Shown piece by piece: positions 2,305-14,545 of a stretch of DNA of 14,545 nucleotides; position 1 is the first letter of the stretch; each line of letters opens with the position of its first letter. A program made the translations under genes and the position numbers. The DNA is taken from contig JAVCCG010000112.1 of assembly GCA_030765605.1 (NCBI GenBank), positions 1 to 14,545 of the forward strand. The letters run 5' to 3'. The notes under the pieces were generated by a model. The model was given only the letters and a program-made list of their open reading frames with translations, had not been told where the DNA came from and did not search any database. This DNA is from Candidatus Alcyoniella australis. GTDB taxonomy: Bacteria; Lernaellota; Lernaellaia; JAVCCG01; Alcyoniellaceae.

Positions 2305-3945
2305 TCAGACCATATATCCCAATCCGGCGAGCCGTTGCCGAATCTGTTCGTTCTGTTCGCGACTCGGAGGTTCGAGGTCGCGCTGGATTGCCGCGGGCTC
2401 GTACTGGACCGCAGCGCTCGCGCCCGCCAGCGGCTCGAGCAGCCGTCCGTCGCACTGCGCGGGCACGGGCAGGCCCAGCAAATGCAGAACGGTCGGCGCG
2501 ATGTCGATCAGCGAAGCGCCCTGCAAGCGCGTCCCGGCCTCGATCCCGCGGCCGTGAGCGATCAGTATGCCGTTCTGCCGATGATTTCCCGTGTGCGGAA
2601 TCACCGGTTGAACGACGAGCTGATCGGCAAGGAACTCGCACGCGCCGCGCGTGATGTAGGCGTAGTCGCGCATCCGCAGCACGATATCCGGTGCCGCGTG
2701 CAACTGCGGCCCGTCGTACAGCTCGTCGCAAAACCAAACCTTGTCCACGATCGGCAGACCGTCGTCCGGATCGACCAGCCCGGCGAGCAGCTCGCGCAGT
2801 TCCTCCCGCGCGAGGTGATAATCGCGGCCGGGCCAGACCGCGCCCTGGGGCTCCCGGCCTCGCAGATTGATCGAGACGTTGCCGAACAGGCCGTGGGCAA
2901 AGGCGCGCGTGCGCGGCCAGTCCACGGTCTCGAAACTGCGCAGCCGCGGATCGATCCGGCCCTGGGCAATCGCCGCATCGGACTGCGGCAGCGCTTGCAG
3001 CGGCCCGGTCACCAGCCCCGCGTGCCACGCGTGACGCGGGTCGTCATCGTGCTCGGGTTCCACGTATTGCTCAGCCGCGCGACGCACCAATTGCGGGTCG
3101 AAGCACAGCAGTCCGGCCTGGATCAGCGCGTGGTTGAGGTTCACGTCGCGCTCGAGTCGGCCGAAGCCGTGGTCGCTGATCAACAGCAGGGTATCGTCCG
3201 GGCCAAGCATGTCGAGCATCGCGCCGACAAAGCTGTCGGCCTGCTCGTAGGCGCGCACGATCGACGCGGCCGCCGGGTCGTTGATCCCCAGGTCGTCGGC
3301 CTCAAGGTCCAGCCGACCGAAAAAGGCGTGGGACGTGCGGTCGATCCCCAGCAGCACGGGTACGAACAGTTGCGGACGATAGCGCTCGAACAATCCCAAA
3401 CAGGTCGCGCAATGCACCCTATCGAGCTGCTCCACGTCCTGGATAAAGGGCTGCTCGCCGTCGTACCAGTGACGCATCACGTCCAGCCGGTAATCCGGAC
3501 AGATCTCGAGCACCTCTCGCCAGAATTCGTCCGGATAGGTCCCGAGCTTGACCGAGGGCGCGTGCATGTCACCGAGCATGAAACCGTTGACCGGCCTAAA
3601 AGGCCAAGAAAGCGGCATATTTATCACGCCGACGCTCTTGCCGTGGCGTGAGGCGGTTTCCCACAGCGCCTCGCCGTGACGCTGCGCCGCAGTGACCAGC
3701 TCGATGTTGTAGGAGCCCGGTTTGCGCTGGCCAAAGTCGAACACGCCGTGACGGCCGGGGTTGGTCCCCGTGGCCATGCTGGCCCAGGCCTGGGGCGTCA
3801 GCGGGTGGATCGTCGAGTTCAGCTCGCCCCGCGCTCCGTGGTCGATCATCCGGCTGATGTGCGGCAACCGCCCCGAACGGACCAAGGGGTCGATCAGGTC
3901 GAACGTCGCGCCGTCCAGGCCGATGACTGCTACTGTGCCAGACAT
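2305..3945 (-). CDS. Alkaline-phosphatase-superfamily type I phosphodiesterase / nucleotide pyrophosphatase-like protein
   Basis: The protein has 546 residues and is complete. It opens with VIGLDGATFD, whose D11 is a metal ligand of the alkaline phosphatase superfamily. This is followed by LTPQAWASMATGTNPGRHG, where T50 sits at the catalytic nucleophile position. Further metal-site candidates are D202/H206 (GIDRTSHAFFG), D258/H259 (LLLISDHGFG) and H455 (HTGNHRQNG). DIAPTVLHLLGLPVP at 481-495 is the usual C-terminal signature. There is no signal peptide, so it probably acts in the cytoplasm, unlike classical secreted phosphatases. The start ATG is preceded by GAGGTG at a 5-nt spacing. The gene is the first of a two-gene unit with the glycosyltransferase 2 nt downstream, and a good promoter lies at 4015-4043. 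The likely reaction is phosphate mono- or diester hydrolysis or transfer on a glycan or lipid intermediate; the substrate cannot be read from the sequence. Confidence 0.9.
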   Translation of the reverse strand: MSGTVAVIGLDGATFDLIDPLVRSGRLPHISRMIDHGARGELNSTIHPLTPQAWASMATGTNPGRHGVFDFGQRKPGSYNIELVTAAQRHGEALWETASRHGKSVGVINMPLSWPFRPVNGFMLGDMHAPSVKLGTYPDEFWREVLEICPDYRLDVMRHWYDGEQPFIQDVEQLDRVHCATCLGLFERYRPQLFVPVLLGIDRTSHAFFGRLDLEADDLGINDPAAASIVRAYEQADSFVGAMLDMLGPDDTLLLISDHGFGRLERDVNLNHALIQAGLLCFDPQLVRRAAEQYVEPEHDDDPRHAWHAGLVTGPLQALPQSDAAIAQGRIDPRLRSFETVDWPRTRAFAHGLFGNVSINLRGREPQGAVWPGRDYHLAREELRELLAGLVDPDDGLPIVDKVWFCDELYDGPQLHAAPDIVLRMRDYAYITRGACEFLADQLVVQPVIPHTGNHRQNGILIAHGRGIEAGTRLQGASLIDIAPTVLHLLGLPVPAQCDGRLLEPLAGASAAVQYEPAAIQRDLEPPSREQNEQIRQRLAGLGYMV

Positions 3946-4043: not shown

Positions 4044-4075
4044 GCAAACAGGCCCTGCCGGATCAATGGCGAGAC

Positions 4076-4105
4076 TTGACTTGCATTGCTCCCGGCCGTT
4101 ACCAT
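4076..4105 (+). promoter_or_regulatory. Sigma70-type promoter of the acyl-transfer operon
   Basis: TTGACT (4076-4081) and TACCAT (4100-4105) are separated by 18 bp. Transcription would begin near 4112, about 20 nt before the TTG start at 4132. The promoter lies downstream of the first in-frame ATG (4066), so a transcript from it could not use that ATG; this favours the TTG. Confidence 0.6.
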
Positions 4106-4116
4106 TTCCGATTGGG

Positions 4117-4124
4117 AAAAGAGG
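4117..4124 (+). promoter_or_regulatory. Shine-Dalgarno sequence that decides the TTG start at 4132
   Basis: AAAAGAGG ends 7 nt before the TTG at 4132, which is good ribosome-binding spacing. No comparable site precedes the in-frame ATG at 4066. With the promoter at 4076-4105, this makes the TTG the preferred start. Confidence 0.6.
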
Positions 4125-4131
4125 CGCGCGA

Positions 4132-5259
4132 TTGGCTCAACCCCGTGATATAAATAATTATTTTAAAATCGCCGGACGGATCCTGCGCATCGGTCTGACT
4201 TTGTTCGCCCTGGTCTGGCTGCTCGATTGGGCGCTGTTGGGCTATTTCGACCGCCCCAACCTGCTGCTGCGCAACCAGACCGCGTCGATCTCGGCCATGC
4301 CCTATCTGCTCGAGGATTATCACGATCATCAGGGCCGACGCGTGGCGTTCCTGGGCAGCTCGGTAATCGCGGGCAACCTCTACACCCTGCCCCAGGAAGC
4401 CGCGCCCTATTTGGTCGAGCGCCGATTGCGCGGCGAATACGGCATGACCAACTTGCGCGCCTTCAACCTGGCGGTGCCCGGGATCACCATGGGCGATTGT
4501 TATCTGCTGCTCTCGAGCCTGGCCGACGATCCGCCGGACTTGGTGGTGCTGACGATCAACGTCAAGTTCTTCTGCAGCTATGTGGTCGACGCGGCCGCGA
4601 TCCGCTACTCGCGGCTGTGGGGCCTGGCGCGGCCCAAGGAGCGCGATTGCGCGGCAGCGCGCTCGGGGTTCAGCCGTCGGCAACGCTTTGAATCGCTGCT
4701 GGGCAACTCCATCGCCCGACGCTGGGCCATGCCGCGGCTGCTGCCGCTGTACAACGAGATCATCTTCGGCCGCCAAAACCCGCTGAACACGGCCCTGGCC
4801 GGCAACGTGCTCAGCGCGTCCGCGCCGGACTTGGTCGAGCCCGCGGGCTCCCCGGATTTCCTGCGCCAGCCCGACCGCTGGCGACGGCTCGAGCCAGGAC
4901 GCGTGGACCTGCTGCGCACGGTCTACGAGCAAATCGTGCCGGTGGAGGAAAACAGCAACTTCTTCTTCCTGGAGCAAGTGCTCGAGCTGCTCGGACGCGA
5001 ACAGATCCCCGCGGTGGTCTACATCACGCCGCTTAACAGCGAGTTCAACAATCAATCCGGCCTACTGGATCCCACGGCCTACGAGCAGTTCAAACGGCAA
5101 ATCGCAGTGATGGTCGAGGGCCGCGGCATAGGGCTGCTTGATTTGTCCGACGCGGTGCCCGGCCAGTGGTTCGGCGACCTGGACCACCTGCTCTACCCCG
5201 GACACCGGATTTTGGCCCAGCGGCTGGCCGGGCCGATCGCCGCAAAGCTGACGCAATGA
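4132..5259 (+). CDS. Membrane-anchored SGNH-fold (DltD-like) O-acyltransferase/esterase
   Basis: The protein has 375 residues from the TTG start. One N-terminal membrane helix (about 19-38) has a Lys/Arg-containing flank on the N-terminal side, predicting an extracytoplasmic catalytic domain. The SGNH blocks are visible: VAFLGSSVIAG (71-81), with S77 as the probable nucleophile, and FNLAVPGITMGD (111-122). DLDHLLYPGH (349-358) near the C-terminus supplies D349 and H352 in the DxxH arrangement used by DltD. The stop codon overlaps the MBOAT start (ATGA at 5256). In Dlt, Alg and Pat systems an SGNH protein paired with an MBOAT passes the acyl group to an envelope polymer; that role is inferred here. 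An ATG at 4066 would add 22 residues but lies upstream of the probable promoter. The acyl group and acceptor are not evident. Confidence 0.8.
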   Translation: MAQPRDINNYFKIAGRILRIGLTLFALVWLLDWALLGYFDRPNLLLRNQTASISAMPYLLEDYHDHQGRRVAFLGSSVIAGNLYTLPQEAAPYLVERRLRGEYGMTNLRAFNLAVPGITMGDCYLLLSSLADDPPDLVVLTINVKFFCSYVVDAAAIRYSRLWGLARPKERDCAAARSGFSRRQRFESLLGNSIARRWAMPRLLPLYNEIIFGRQNPLNTALAGNVLSASAPDLVEPAGSPDFLRQPDRWRRLEPGRVDLLRTVYEQIVPVEENSNFFFLEQVLELLGREQIPAVVYITPLNSEFNNQSGLLDPTAYEQFKRQIAVMVEGRGIGLLDLSDAVPGQWFGDLDHLLYPGHRILAQRLAGPIAAKLTQ

Positions 5260-6452
5260 GCTGGATCGTCACGGGCTTCGCGCTGTTCGTCTGCCTGGTG
5301 TGGGCGGTCTTCATGCTGCTGCCCGCGCGGCTGCGCGGCCATTGGATGCTGCTCGCCTCACTGTGCTACTTCGCGCTCGAGGGCTGGCGCTCGCTGCTGC
5401 TGGTGGCGGCCATGCTGCTCTGGGTCTGGCTGTTGGGGCTGCTCGTGGGCCGCGGCAGGCCCAGGCTCGGCGTGGGACTCGGGGTCGCCGGACTGCTGGC
5501 GATCTTGGCGGTCGGTAAATATTCCCAGTGGCTGCTCGGGATGTCCGGATCGCTGGCCGCGACGCTTGGACTACAGGAGTTCAGCTCGCCGCAGTGGCTG
5601 GCGCCCCTGGGCCTGAGCTACTTCGTGTTTCGCATGATCAGCTATCTGGCCGACGTGTCCTACGGCCGGATCCAGACCGCGGGGCCGCTGCGTTTGGCGG
5701 GCTACGTGCTGTTCTTCCCGACCCTGCCCGCCGGTCCCATCGAGCGCTTCGGCGCGTTCGACCCCCAGGCCGTAGCGGGCGCGCGTCCGACCTTCGACGA
5801 TCTGCGCGTGGGCCTGGGCCGCGTGGCCGCGGGCCTGTTTAAAAAGCTGGTGCTGGCCGACACGTTCTGGGAGCTGGGCCGGGCGCTGAAGTATGCGGAT
5901 GAGACGCCCACGGCCCTGCTGTGGTTGGCGCTCTACGCCTACACCCTGCACATCTACTTCGATTTCTCGGGCTACTCGGACATGGCGATCGGCATCGCGC
6001 GCCTGTTCGGAATCCGCATCCGCGAGAACTTCGATTGGCCCTACGCCCGGACCAACATCGCCGATTTCTGGCGGCATTGGCACATGAGCCTCACGGCTTT
6101 CATCACCGAGTACATCTACTATCCACTGGGCGGCAATCGCAGCGGGCAGCTGCGGGCCGGGATCAACACCTTGATCGCCATGGGGCTGTGCGGGATGTGG
6201 CACGGCTCGGGCTGGCATTTCCTGGCCTGGGGCCTGTACCACGGCGCGGGGCTGACGATCTATCGCCTGTGGCGCAACCTGCGCAAACAACACGGCCTGT
6301 ACCGGCCGCAGTCGACCTGGCGCAAATACGCCTCGTGGCTGCTGACCTTGAACTTCGTTGCCCTGGGCTGGGTGATGTTCCTGCTGCCGTTTAAAGAGGC
6401 GCTGAGCGCCTACTTGGCGCTGCTGGGAATCCAGGGGGTGCAGTTCAGATGA
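5256..6452 (+). CDS. MBOAT-family membrane-bound O-acyltransferase (DltB/AlgI-like)
   Basis: The protein has 398 residues, mostly membrane helices. Family signatures in order: FFPTLPAGPIERF (153-165), YFDFSGYSDMAIG (234-246), ENFDWPY...FWRHWHMSL (257-279), and MWHGSGWHFLAWGLYHG (314-330), with H316 in the position of the invariant MBOAT histidine. The start is the ATG at 5256, which overlaps the SGNH stop; longer in-frame starts (such as 5166) lie inside that gene. The length is like DltB (about 400) and shorter than AlgI or PatA (about 460-520). The C-terminus ends in GVQFR and lacks the FxYxxF shuttle motif that longer MBOATs carry. Its stop overlaps the start of the microprotein that does carry the motif. 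Expected role: moving an acyl group from a cytoplasmic thioester donor across the membrane. No donor-loading gene (DltA/DltC-like) is present in the window. Confidence 0.92.
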   Translation: MSWIVTGFALFVCLVWAVFMLLPARLRGHWMLLASLCYFALEGWRSLLLVAAMLLWVWLLGLLVGRGRPRLGVGLGVAGLLAILAVGKYSQWLLGMSGSLAATLGLQEFSSPQWLAPLGLSYFVFRMISYLADVSYGRIQTAGPLRLAGYVLFFPTLPAGPIERFGAFDPQAVAGARPTFDDLRVGLGRVAAGLFKKLVLADTFWELGRALKYADETPTALLWLALYAYTLHIYFDFSGYSDMAIGIARLFGIRIRENFDWPYARTNIADFWRHWHMSLTAFITEYIYYPLGGNRSGQLRAGINTLIAMGLCGMWHGSGWHFLAWGLYHGAGLTIYRLWRNLRKQHGLYRPQSTWRKYASWLLTLNFVALGWVMFLLPFKEALSAYLALLGIQGVQFR

Positions 6453-6565
6453 TTAAACGCTGGCTGATCGACGTGCTGATCGGCGCCGGGCTGTTCGCCG
6501 GACTGCTGCTGCTGCTGAGCTTCGCCGCGGGCAAACAGGCGCTGTTTATGTACGCGGTGTTTTAG
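6449..6565 (+). CDS. DltX-like single-pass microprotein with C-terminal FxYxxF acyl-shuttle motif
   Basis: This is a 38-residue open frame beginning in an ATGA overlap with the MBOAT stop (6449-6452) and ending at TAG 6563-6565. The N-terminus is MIKRW (basic, inside). A Leu-rich helix spans about residues 9-27 (LIGAGLFAGLLLLLSFAA), then a short tail GKQAL, ending in FMYAVF at the very last residue. DltX microproteins of Gram-positive dlt operons share size, topology (N-in, C-out) and a C-terminal FxYxxF hexapeptide whose tyrosine is acylated by DltB and hands the acyl group to DltD. The same pattern here (F33, Y35, F38), beside a DltB-sized MBOAT and a DltD-like SGNH protein, strongly suggests the same role. 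Function is inferred; the frame, overlap and motif are seen directly. Automated callers would probably miss it because of its length. Confidence 0.78.
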   Translation: MIKRWLIDVLIGAGLFAGLLLLLSFAAGKQALFMYAVF

Positions 6566-6567
6566 CC

Positions 6568-7758
6568 TCAGTGCATGCTGAAGGCGCTGATCAGTACCGG
6601 GGTTTTGCTGAAGCCGCGCACCGCGCCTTTGTCCTTATCGCCGGCCCAGGCGAGCATCGCCGAGCTGCCGCCGTCGAGGTTTAACGCGTCGACGCAGCCC
6701 AGGCCGCCGCGATCCTCGGGCCGGGCGAGCATGTGGCTCAGCTCGCTGAACGACAGCCCGTTGATCACCGCGTCGGTGGTAACAAAGATCACGTATTGGC
6801 CGCTGGTGCAGATCGCCGAGCGTCGATCGACCAGCCAGGGATTTTTAAACTCGGTCATCTGGCGGCCGGCGCGCACCAGCCACGGGCCGGTCTGCACCGC
6901 GTCCTCGTACTTGTAGGTGCGGAAACCCTGGCGATCGACCAGCTCCAGCGTTTGACCCTTGATCGCCACAACACCGCCGAGCTCTCCGCGGGTCACCAGG
7001 TGGCTGCGCTCCTGGTTGTTGATCAGCAGCATGCCCAGCGGCTGGCCCTGTTCGTTGTAGAACCCGCCGTTGATCAGCATCACGGCGCCCATGTTGCTGC
7101 GCAGCTTCGAGGCGTAAGTCGATTGCTTGTAGCCTTCGAGCTGTAGTACGTGGAAGTTGTACTCGCCCAGCCGCATCCGTACGCACTCCAGCGTAACTCC
7201 GGTTATGTTTCTGCTGCGCTTGAGCTTGATGCTGCGCACCTCCATGGCCGGGGCCACTTGCTGCCAAACTCCGCGCTTGACGATCTCTAGATTGCCACCG
7301 GCGTCGCCGCGATACTTGAGCAAGTTATCCTTGATCATCACCACCAAACGGTAGCTGGGTTCCGGGGCGAGGAAATACATCGGCACCGCGGTCAGCGCCG
7401 CGAGCAACAGCAGTGTCAGCACCAGCTTGATCAGCCCGCCGAACAATTTCGCGCTCGCCGATTTATCCGAGCGTTTGGCCTTGGGCTTGAGCACGGTGCG
7501 GGGCGGCTGTGGCGGCTCGCGTCGCGGCGGCTGCCCGCGACGCAACTGCAGTCCGATCGCATTGATATCGATCGACGCATCGCCGGGGCTGGTCTGTGGA
7601 ACCTCCTGGGAACGGTCGATCCAGGACGGGTCTTTGGATTCGACCGACTCCTCGTCGCGTTCGAGCTCCTTCCACAGCTTCTCCGTATGGCCCTCGTCGT
7701 CGCCTGATTCGTCGACCCGGTCGTCTTTCAAGTCGTGTTTATCTCTTTTATCATCCAT
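6568..7758 (-). CDS. Membrane-anchored phosphodiester glycosidase (NAGPA-domain) protein
   Basis: The protein has 396 residues from the ATG at 7758. Residues 1-60 are acidic and hydrophilic, followed by a Pro/Arg-rich stretch and a single membrane helix at about 106-130, placing the C-terminal domain outside the cytoplasm. The domain shows the phosphodiester glycosidase (NAGPA) signatures NGGFYNEQGQPLGMLLINNQ (230-249) and LNLDGGSSAML (360-370). In NAGPA this fold cleaves GlcNAc-1-phosphodiesters; bacterial members act on envelope or glycan phosphodiesters, mostly uncharacterised. The start is chosen because the longer alternative (7809) would overlap the AI-2E gene by 59 bp, whereas 7758 overlaps it by only 8 bp with purine-rich GGGGACGCGG upstream. 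It is the last gene of its operon; its stop lies 2 bp from the stop of the convergent microprotein. Confidence 0.85.
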   Translation of the reverse strand: MDDKRDKHDLKDDRVDESGDDEGHTEKLWKELERDEESVESKDPSWIDRSQEVPQTSPGDASIDINAIGLQLRRGQPPRREPPQPPRTVLKPKAKRSDKSASAKLFGGLIKLVLTLLLLAALTAVPMYFLAPEPSYRLVVMIKDNLLKYRGDAGGNLEIVKRGVWQQVAPAMEVRSIKLKRSRNITGVTLECVRMRLGEYNFHVLQLEGYKQSTYASKLRSNMGAVMLINGGFYNEQGQPLGMLLINNQERSHLVTRGELGGVVAIKGQTLELVDRQGFRTYKYEDAVQTGPWLVRAGRQMTEFKNPWLVDRRSAICTSGQYVIFVTTDAVINGLSFSELSHMLARPEDRGGLGCVDALNLDGGSSAMLAWAGDKDKGAVRGFSKTPVLISAFSMH

Positions 7759-8878
7759 CCGCGTCCCCACCGGCGGCGCTAAGGTATTGATCAGAATACC
7801 ACTTGACAAAGTCTTCCCAAAACACCTTGAGCACCGCGGTGATCGGCAGTGCCAGCAGAATGCCTAAAAAGCCGAGCACCTGTCCCCAGACCATGATCGA
7901 AAAAATCACCAACACCGGATGCAGGCCGAGCTTCTCGCCGACGATCTTGGGCGTGATGAAGTTCCCCTCCGCCAGTTGCACCACGACGAACACCGCGCAG
8001 ACCAGCGCCGGGTGCAGCAGGTCGCCGTGCTCGAGCCAGGCGAGCAACAGCGCCGGGATAATGCCCAGCACCAGCCCGAGGTACGGCACGAAGCTGATCA
8101 GGCCGGCGATGATGCCGATCGTACCGCCCAGCGGCACCTGGGCGATCCACTTCAGGCCCACGGCGTAGAGCACGGCGAGCAGCGCGCAGACCATCAGCTG
8201 CCCGCGCAGGAAGTTGCCCAGCGCCTCGTCGATCCGACGCAGGTGGTCGACGATTGTCTGTTTGTGTCGCGCCGGCAGCATCGAACGGCAACGCTGGATC
8301 AGCGAATCGATATCTTTGAGCAGATAGACCCATGCCACGGGGATCACCACCAGCCACAGCAGCGAGACCGCCACGCTGGAGAGGCTGGAGAAGACCTTGG
8401 ACAGGGCGGCCGTCGCCGGCTGCCGCAACTTTTGGGCCAGCCAGCCCAGGCGCTGCTCGTCGGCCAGCAGTCGGTCGGTGAACTCCGAGTAGCTGTGCGG
8501 CAGCTCGACCGAGAACGTGTCCTCGATCCAGGGCACTACATCCTGTGTGACGCGTTGGGCGTAGTCGTTGGTGCGCTGGCCGACCCGTCCCATCTCCTGG
8601 GCCACGCCGGGAAACACGATCAGCAACAGCAGGGCCAGCAGCAACGCCAGCGCCAATATCAGAATCAGAATCCCAAGTGAGCGCCGCACGCCCAGGTTCT
8701 CCAGGCGGTCGATGATCGGATCGCAGATGTAGGCCAGCAGAAAGGCCGCGGCAAAGGCGGTAAGCAGGGTGCTGAAGTACCACACCAGGCCCACCGCCGC
8801 GATCACGGCAACGACGTAGGTCGCCAGCCGCACCCAGGGATTGTTCCACAGGACATTGAGCGGTACGTGTTGGTTCAT
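7751..8878 (-). CDS. AI-2E family (PerM-like) membrane transporter
   Basis: The protein has 375 residues, typical for the family. Hydrophobic pairs near the N-terminus (about 15-55 and 60-85) flank a long extramembrane helical region (about 90-160). Several further helices follow. Family motifs are present: FLRGQLMV, FVPYLGLVLGIIPALLLAWL, FITPKIVGEKLGLHPVLV and GILLALPITAVLKVF near the C-terminus. The start ATG (8878-8876) shares an ATGA with the stop of the pgsA-like gene; an upstream in-frame extension to 9205 would lie wholly inside that gene and is rejected. Members are proposed to export small molecules or ions, or to act as Na+/H+ antiporters; the name comes from one AI-2 exporter and does not prove quorum signalling. 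The substrate is unknown. Confidence 0.88.
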   Translation of the reverse strand: MNQHVPLNVLWNNPWVRLATYVVAVIAAVGLVWYFSTLLTAFAAAFLLAYICDPIIDRLENLGVRRSLGILILILALALLLALLLLIVFPGVAQEMGRVGQRTNDYAQRVTQDVVPWIEDTFSVELPHSYSEFTDRLLADEQRLGWLAQKLRQPATAALSKVFSSLSSVAVSLLWLVVIPVAWVYLLKDIDSLIQRCRSMLPARHKQTIVDHLRRIDEALGNFLRGQLMVCALLAVLYAVGLKWIAQVPLGGTIGIIAGLISFVPYLGLVLGIIPALLLAWLEHGDLLHPALVCAVFVVVQLAEGNFITPKIVGEKLGLHPVLVIFSIMVWGQVLGFLGILLALPITAVLKVFWEDFVKWYSDQYLSAAGGDADG

Positions 8879-12980: not shown

Positions 12981-13240
12981 CTGCATTTCCACCCCCTGGC
13001 GAGCGGTGCGTTGAATCAGGGTTTTCATCCGGAGGGGACCGAAAGACGTCGTGTTCCTCGGGCAACGAAGCGAATCGATTTCGATTAAAAATTGGCCTCG
13101 GATTTATGCCGAGAGAAGAGGTGTTGATCAAGGTGGCAAGGTGAGGAGTTTATGAAAACCCTGAGGCAATGCGCCGCTCGCCCCACACACAAAGATCGAT
13201 TTCTCGATCTTTACTCCGTCTCCCCAACATCTTCCTACGC

Positions 13241-13565
13241 GGGGAGGCTCGGTGCATTACGACCAGCGAACTACGCGAGTTTTGTGGCGGCTCTAAGCCG
13301 CCCGGGCGCGGGGTGGGTCGTGGCGCTACGACCAGCGTACTGCGCGAGTTTCGCAGCGGCTCGAAGCCGCCCGGGCGCGGGGAGGGTCGGTGCATTAAGA
13401 CCAGCGTACTGCGCGAGTTTTGTGGCACCTCAAAGGTGCCGCGAGTTTTGTGGCACCTCAAAGGTGCCGCGAGTTTTGCAGCGGCTCTAAGCCGCCCGGG
13501 CGCGGGGAGGATCGGTGCATTAAGACCAGCGTACTGTGCGAGTTTTGTGGCACCTCAAAGGTGCC
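13241..13565. repeat. Array of 69-bp and 28-bp repeats, each carrying a three-nucleotide-loop hairpin
   Basis: Units begin near 13241, 13310 and 13379 at exact 69-bp spacing (the GACCAG anchor is at 13261, 13330 and 13399). Short 28-bp units follow at 13441, then a final unit from 13469 with GACCAG at 13524. Each unit has GCGAGTTT followed by a hairpin. Two stem types alternate: GGCGGCT-CTA-AGCCGCC (13286-13302; shorter variants at 13356 and 13481) and GGCACCT-CAA-AGGTGCC (13424-13440, 13452-13468, 13549-13565). The GC-rich stems are followed by a self-complementary CGCCCGGGCG. Units abut with no unique spacers, so it is not a CRISPR. It resembles REP/BIME-type intergenic palindrome arrays. 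Confidence 0.8.
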
Positions 13566-13568
13566 GGG

Positions 13569-14459
13569 TCAGCGCAGGTTGATGGTCAGCGGGATCGTTT
13601 GGCCGCCGCGATCGACATCGATCGTAATGCTGGAGGTCGTGCCCAAATCAGCCATCAGGCGCAGCAGCTCGGCGGTATTGTTGGCCGGCCGGCCGTTGAT
13701 CGAGGTCACGATGTCGCCGCGTTTGAGCCCCATTTGCGACAGCGGGCTGTTTTTCGGAATCCGGCCGAACTTGAAGCCGTCCTCCACGGGTCGACCGCGA
13801 ATCTGGCCGGCCAGGGCCGCGGGATTCTCGATCATCTGGTCGACGAACTCGCGTGCCACATTAAACTCGCCGTCGCCGACCTCCTCCACCGAGTTCTCCA
13901 TCGGCGAACCCGAGGACGTGCCGGTGGAACGGCTGCGGCCGATCGAGGTCGATGAGTTGGCGTTCTTGCCGCTGTAGTATGGAATCTGCCGCAGGATCTG
14001 TTGTTCGCCACTGCGGTCGATGGTCACCACGCCGCTGTCGATAGCCATGATCGTGGCGTCGGCGAGCAGGGTGTCGCCCAAAGTGTAGACCTCGGTCAGT
14101 TTGGAGCCGCGGTCGGTGATGATCGCGTAGCGGCCGTGCTCGCCCCAGATCACCGTTCCGTTGAGCTCGACGTTGAGGTCGGTCTCAACCGCCTCGGAAT
14201 GCCCCTGGCCGATCAGGTTCTGCCCCACGGCGGCCGAGTTGAACAGCGAACGATCGACGATCATGCGCAGGATCGTGTTGCGCGGCGGCGGCGGTTTGGG
14301 ACGCTGGACCTGCGCCGAGAGCACGGATGGACTGGCGGCCTGGAGCTTGCCGCTGATCGCCGAGGTGAAGACCCCGGCGGTGAGATAGGCGCTCAGACCC
14401 AGGAAGCACAGGGTCAAAGCCCAGAAGTATTTCTTGAGGATTGTGTTTATCAGACCCAT
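13569..14459 (-). CDS. gspC: Type II secretion system protein C (GspC) with HR and PDZ domains
   Basis: The protein has 296 residues from the ATG at 14459, preceded by GGGTGA. A short cytoplasmic N-terminus and one membrane helix (about 10-34) are followed by a Pro-rich linker. DRSLFN (70-75) leads to the homology region (about 93-158: LNGTVIWGEHGRYAIITD, YTLGDTL, IDSGVVTIDR), then a Ser/Thr-rich linker (164-187) and a PDZ domain (226-296: GFKFGRIPKNSPLSQMGLKR, GDIVTSINGRP). This order is that of GspC, the inner-membrane clamp that contacts the GspD secretin in the periplasm. Downstream lies a repeat-filled 1 kb and then genes on the other strand, so gspD does not follow it; the other gsp genes must be elsewhere or beyond the window edge. 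A longer start at 14513 lacks a good ribosome site. Confidence 0.88.
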   Translation of the reverse strand: MGLINTILKKYFWALTLCFLGLSAYLTAGVFTSAISGKLQAASPSVLSAQVQRPKPPPPRNTILRMIVDRSLFNSAAVGQNLIGQGHSEAVETDLNVELNGTVIWGEHGRYAIITDRGSKLTEVYTLGDTLLADATIMAIDSGVVTIDRSGEQQILRQIPYYSGKNANSSTSIGRSRSTGTSSGSPMENSVEEVGDGEFNVAREFVDQMIENPAALAGQIRGRPVEDGFKFGRIPKNSPLSQMGLKRGDIVTSINGRPANNTAELLRLMADLGTTSSITIDVDRGGQTIPLTINLR

Positions 14460-14481
14460 GTATTCACCCATCAAAGGCGTA

Positions 14482-14494
14482 ATGCTAATAGCAT
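14482..14494. promoter_or_regulatory. 13-bp palindrome upstream of gspC, possible operator/promoter overlap
   Basis: ATGCTA-A-TAGCAT is a perfect odd palindrome 23-35 bp upstream of the gspC start. On the minus strand it overlaps a plausible extended -10 element (TGGTATGCT). No good -35 partner was found, so promoter assignment is weak. Confidence 0.3.
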
Positions 14495-14545
14495 ACCATC
14501 TGCTGCCGCACAAGCTCGTATCGTGGACAACTTCACGAATAACCA

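Follow-up and report, generated by a model that had tools for sequence, protein, structure and literature searches.

The window analysed here, a stretch of 14,545 nucleotides from Candidatus Alcyoniella australis, carries a 38-aa microprotein that is a real, conserved gene. It is encoded directly behind an MBOAT acyltransferase gene, which is itself preceded by the gene for an SGNH-type protein. The three proteins very probably form one transmembrane acyl-transfer machine, with Tyr35 of the microprotein as the shuttle between the MBOAT and the SGNH protein. MBOAT-SGNH pathways other than Dlt were stated in 2025 to be without a DltX-like microprotein (PMC12148441); the microprotein family described below is a counterexample to that claim. 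Several bacterial lineages outside Dlt probably have the shuttle as a protein of its own, and no description of such a stand-alone shuttle was found in the literature searched, in which subscription papers were sparsely covered.

The three-gene operon and its proteins

The following features were located in the window.

2305-3945, minus strand: phosphodiesterase/nucleotide pyrophosphatase-family gene (PF01663), upstream of the operon and divergent from it
4066-5259, plus strand: putative SGNH/GDSL-type extracytoplasmic acyltransferase with an N-terminal membrane anchor (motifs, Foldseek)
4360-4362, plus strand: codon of SGNH Ser99, the predicted nucleophile (invariant in homologues)
5256-6452, plus strand: MBOAT acyltransferase of the short form, 398 aa (PF03062; DltB-like predicted fold)
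6201-6203, plus strand: codon of MBOAT His316, the invariant catalytic histidine (two MBOAT alignments)
6449-6565 including the stop, plus strand: DltX-like microprotein, 38 aa, the candidate stand-alone acyl shuttle (ORF, family profile, conservation)
6464-6517, plus strand: predicted transmembrane helix of the microprotein, residues ~6-23 (hydropathy and charge count)
6545-6562, plus strand: C-terminal motif FMYAVF (Y35 and F38 shared by all 27 microproteins)
6551-6553, plus strand: codon of Tyr35, within FMYAVF
6568-7809, minus strand: phosphodiester glycosidase of the NAGPA type (PF09992); its end and the microprotein stop are two bases apart
13569-14513: GspC-like gene (146.5 bits vs. a cut-off of 150)

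The operon occupies 4066-6565 on the plus strand in the order SGNH, MBOAT, microprotein. The stop of the SGNH gene overlaps the MBOAT start in an ATGA at 5256-5259, and the MBOAT stop overlaps the microprotein start in a second ATGA at 6449-6452. Since genes on the opposite strand bound it on both sides, the operon consists of exactly three genes; dltA and dltC are absent from it. Translation of the 6449-6565 frame gives MIKRWLIDVLIGAGLFAGLLLLLSFAAGKQALFMYAVF, followed by the stop codon, with Phe38 as the terminal residue. The predicted helix has a mean hydropathy of 2.5 and is preceded by two basic residues, Lys3 and Arg4. A first-pass annotation of this DNA had already described the 38-aa frame with its MBOAT overlap, the single membrane helix behind a basic N-terminus, and FMYAVF as the C-terminal end, which is exactly the last six residues; all of these were seen again, and its numbering of Tyr35 and MBOAT His316 agrees with ours. 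Profile search of the window genome found a single microprotein, and only one MBOAT was present there at E <= 1e-5.

The MBOAT matched PF03062 with an E value of 2.9e-26 (93 bits vs. a cut-off of 27). It ends in GIQGVQFR, where DltB also ends, and is devoid of the shuttle motif and the C-terminal helices, whereas the fused MBOATs sampled were mostly ~460-510 aa long with FIYFQF-like ends. An AlphaFold2 model of the MBOAT, built with 49 sequences, reached a mean pLDDT of 91.7. Its best structural matches were the DltB structures 8jem (Z 35.1) and 6bug (Z 34.6), aligned along the full length of the model over 368 residues, and PORCN trailed at Z 29.

The GxS, Asn and Asp-x-x-His motifs and an SGNH fold were found in the SGNH protein. 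Across 14 homologues, eight of which matched Lipase_GDSL_2, no variation was seen at Gly97, Ser99, Asn134, Asp373 and His374, and hardly any at Asp371. The nucleophile had earlier been given as S77; counted from the ATG at 4066 it is Ser99, and the number 77 would require a start at 4132. The model of the SGNH protein had a mean pLDDT of 64.5, with a poor middle part and a much better SGNH core. This core matched SGNH hydrolases with Z up to 19, and the ten best Foldseek matches of the model were all DltD.

Conservation of the microprotein and the proposed acyl transfer

We examined 2,237 ORFs of at least 25 codons in the host-phylum loci and the window for a YxxF end. Only 28 rows ended in this way, and all were either microproteins of this family or the ends of fused MBOATs, with no background match; one microprotein was counted in two overlapping loci, leaving 27 distinct YxxF ends. 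A microprotein profile run against whole host-phylum genomes separated true matches (E <= 3.5e-8) from noise (E >= 0.012). Searched alone against Pfam, NCBIfam and the PDB, the microprotein gave no useful match, and a gene of this size is easily missed by a gene-length cut-off. Between related microproteins dS was ~0.8-2.8 (one pair being saturated) vs. a dN of 0.11-0.31; synonymous change thus far exceeds amino-acid change, indicating purifying selection on the microprotein.

The family as collected comprises 27 microproteins over four groups labelled as different phyla. All 27 end in YxxF and terminate at that Phe. The Tyr and the terminal Phe are the sole invariant residues, and the helix varies freely. 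It had been proposed that homologous MBOAT operons would contain a small frame with a conserved C-terminal Tyr; the frame is present and the Tyr is invariant. Across the family, 51 Lys and Arg residues precede the helix and 15 follow it. Such a concentration of basic residues before the helix predicts a topology with the N-terminus in and the C-terminus out, in line with the earlier expectation that the C-terminus is not cytoplasmic.

In PatA the same motif is fused to the MBOAT and is acetylated on Tyr, and a peptide with acetyl-Tyr can serve PatB as donor. The Dlt pathway has the motif on the separate microprotein DltX, which forms a heterotrimer with its two partners (PMC12148441). By analogy, the microprotein Tyr may be the acyl carrier between the MBOAT and the SGNH serine. 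The acyl group would come from a cytoplasmic thioester, and the MBOAT, by way of its His316, would load it onto Tyr35 of the separate 38-aa microprotein. From the microprotein C-terminus, on the outer side of the inner membrane, the group would move on to Ser99 of the membrane-anchored SGNH protein, and this protein would then esterify an envelope polymer. In this scheme we infer the topology, the acyl-Tyr intermediate, the direction of transfer and the formation of a complex. A minimal three-part system of this kind, working with neither DltA nor DltC, would be useful for reconstituting transmembrane acyl transfer.

The microprotein could instead be a structural subunit that joins the MBOAT and the SGNH protein, with Tyr35 unacylated and the acyl group passing directly from the MBOAT to the SGNH serine. 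DltX likewise binds both of its partners, and sequence cannot reveal acylation. We nevertheless regard a purely structural role as unlikely, given that the only residues held invariant are the Tyr and the terminal Phe of a motif that in PatA has been shown to bear the acetyl group.

Relation to the Dlt, PatA/AlgI and OatA systems

The microprotein resembles DltX in being a separate, predicted single-helix protein with [F]xYxxF at its extreme C-terminus. Its setting resembles that of DltB and DltD, with an MBOAT that lacks the motif, an SGNH partner, and similar predicted folds. Membership in the Pfam DltX family is another matter. PF12459 was run on the window protein and on 19 family members and matched none of them. 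It was absent from the host phylum and gave no match above its cut-off in 145 genomes, while the B. subtilis and L. lactis controls were positive, and DltX was likewise not found in ten genomes reached via Bacillota-labelled loci. As references we used five DltX proteins from plasmid-borne dlt operons. These end in FIYNEF or YIYNDF, whereas the microproteins end in AVF, AMF or VDF instead of NEF or NDF. Alignment of the microprotein profile with the five DltX proteins by hhalign gave a probability of 59, which is too low a value to settle homology to DltX at this length; weak similarity is to be expected of so short a protein. The microprotein gene is also placed after the MBOAT or SGNH gene, and not ahead of dltA as DltX is. 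The first-pass annotation had called the microprotein a DltX equivalent. This holds for its likely function, in that it would work like DltX, but not for its family, because by sequence it falls outside Pfam DltX.

We also considered whether the operon is a relocated Dlt system, with D-alanine as the acyl group and true orthologues of DltB, DltX and DltD. The separate microprotein and predicted MBOAT and SGNH folds closest to DltB and DltD would agree with this. The curated models do not: TIGR04091 (DltB) scored 195.1 bits on the MBOAT, under its cut-off of 375, which makes the protein DltB-like and not DltB, and TIGR04092 (DltD) scored 14.3 bits on the SGNH protein, under its cut-off of 150. 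TIGR01734 (DltA) was above cut-off in none of seven host-phylum genomes, so that transfer of D-alanine through the Dlt carrier is not likely there. Together with the missing Pfam DltX match and the position of DltB on its own long branch in the MBOAT tree, these results make a relocated Dlt system very unlikely.

With PatA-PatB and AlgI-type systems the operon shares the MBOAT and SGNH pair, the C-terminal hexapeptide, the invariant His and Tyr, and the lack of an adjoining carrier-protein gene. It differs from them in that the motif and its helix form a separate gene and the MBOAT stops at the DltB end. A profile of the fused-MBOAT C-terminus matched 25 of 26 microproteins, weakly. OatA-type AT3-SGNH proteins have a comparable tyrosine relay to an SGNH serine (PMC12148441); there, however, the membrane domain is AT3 in place of the MBOAT, and no microprotein is involved.

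Distribution and origin of split MBOATs

The host phylum was sampled with seven genomes (G000 to G006). They contained 18 short, motif-less MBOATs vs. 17 microproteins found by the profile, in ratios of 1:1, 4:3, 2:2, 3:3, 1:1, 5:5 and 2:2 from G000 to G006, so that one short MBOAT was without a matching microprotein. The remaining MBOATs of the phylum bear the motif at their own C-terminus. A locus with an interrupted MBOAT frame (L075) was excluded from this count. Interrupted MBOAT or SGNH frames were also seen at four loci of G005 (L069, L056, L057 and L061), a genome that is 77% complete, and are probably assembly errors.

Thirteen of the 17 microproteins lie within an MBOAT locus and four elsewhere, none of the four being the next gene after a motif-less MBOAT. 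Three of these four, in G001, G003 and G005, are found directly behind genes for an ArsA-like ATPase, moeA and moaC, and in each of these genomes a short MBOAT belonging to one subgroup has no adjoining shuttle. The fourth unlinked microprotein is in G005. The one in G001 has another short MBOAT ~0.6 kb away, encoded on the other strand. The counts suggest that the unlinked microproteins pair with particular short MBOATs. As the shuttle gene is far from its MBOAT in some genomes, paralogous transferases may be able to exchange shuttles. The moeA-moaC/ArsA-like-ATPase-linked shuttle microproteins (L097, L098 and L099) come from three genera of one family.

Beyond the host phylum (taxon names of MAGs are record labels), a short-MBOAT scan of named genome contigs gave 80 loci. 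These included 78 intact MBOAT frames, of which 76 were fused and two were not when the motif was defined strictly. One of the two is in a MAG labelled Candidatus Chisholmbacteria (L104), which has the same three genes as the window in the same order and with the same overlaps. Its locus contains a further SGNH gene of weak similarity, located behind the microprotein (L104:3602-4672). The other is in a MAG labelled Actinomycetota (L102), which has a split MBOAT and a microprotein ending in FIYIAF. The microprotein profile added one further lineage from 386 genomes; in its phylum 8 of 45 genomes have the microprotein, with the end FIYVDF. The gene order there is SGNH-microprotein-MBOAT in one family, and in the others the MBOAT is set apart from an SGNH-microprotein pair (MBOAT...SGNH-microprotein). 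A Myxococcales contig breaks off within its MBOAT, which groups near the split ones in the tree.

Maximum-likelihood MBOAT trees were built without the C-terminal region. In two trees all fused (PatA/AlgI-like) MBOATs fell on one side of a branch with support of 100/96 and 100/99, and the split MBOATs and DltB fell on the other. Rooted with DltB, the trees indicate one fusion event. A single fission in the opposite direction may also account for this arrangement, given the long branch of DltB and the uncertain position of the root. We give even weight, for and against, to the reading that the separate shuttle is older: the MBOAT core, the shuttle peptide and the SGNH transferase would have begun as separate proteins, one fusion would have given rise to the whole PatA/AlgI-like class, and the three-protein state would have persisted both in Dlt and in the lineages reported above. 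The split family makes it possible to test how the fused enzymes arose in evolution.

That the microprotein is simply a fragment broken off the end of a PatA/AlgI-type fused MBOAT, through frameshift, sequencing error or recent fission, would fit its position directly after the MBOAT with a four-base overlap and its resemblance to the last helix and motif of fused MBOATs, but is highly improbable, as the extra C-terminal helix that precedes the motif helix in PatA is missing from the MBOAT, as it is from DltB, the split is kept across the phylum along with other gene orders and unlinked copies, the split MBOATs fall outside the fused group, and the microprotein DNA is under purifying selection. 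Gene order and the tree led us to reject a frameshift or broken fusion.

The host had been taken for a Gram-negative-type bacterium, and the GspC-like gene of the window supports this, being a sign of a type II secretion system and a two-membrane cell. Occurrence in a probable two-membrane lineage is a further difference between the microprotein and the Dlt system. Just before the GspC-like gene, at 13238-13478, we noted tandem repeats with units of 69 and 28 bases.
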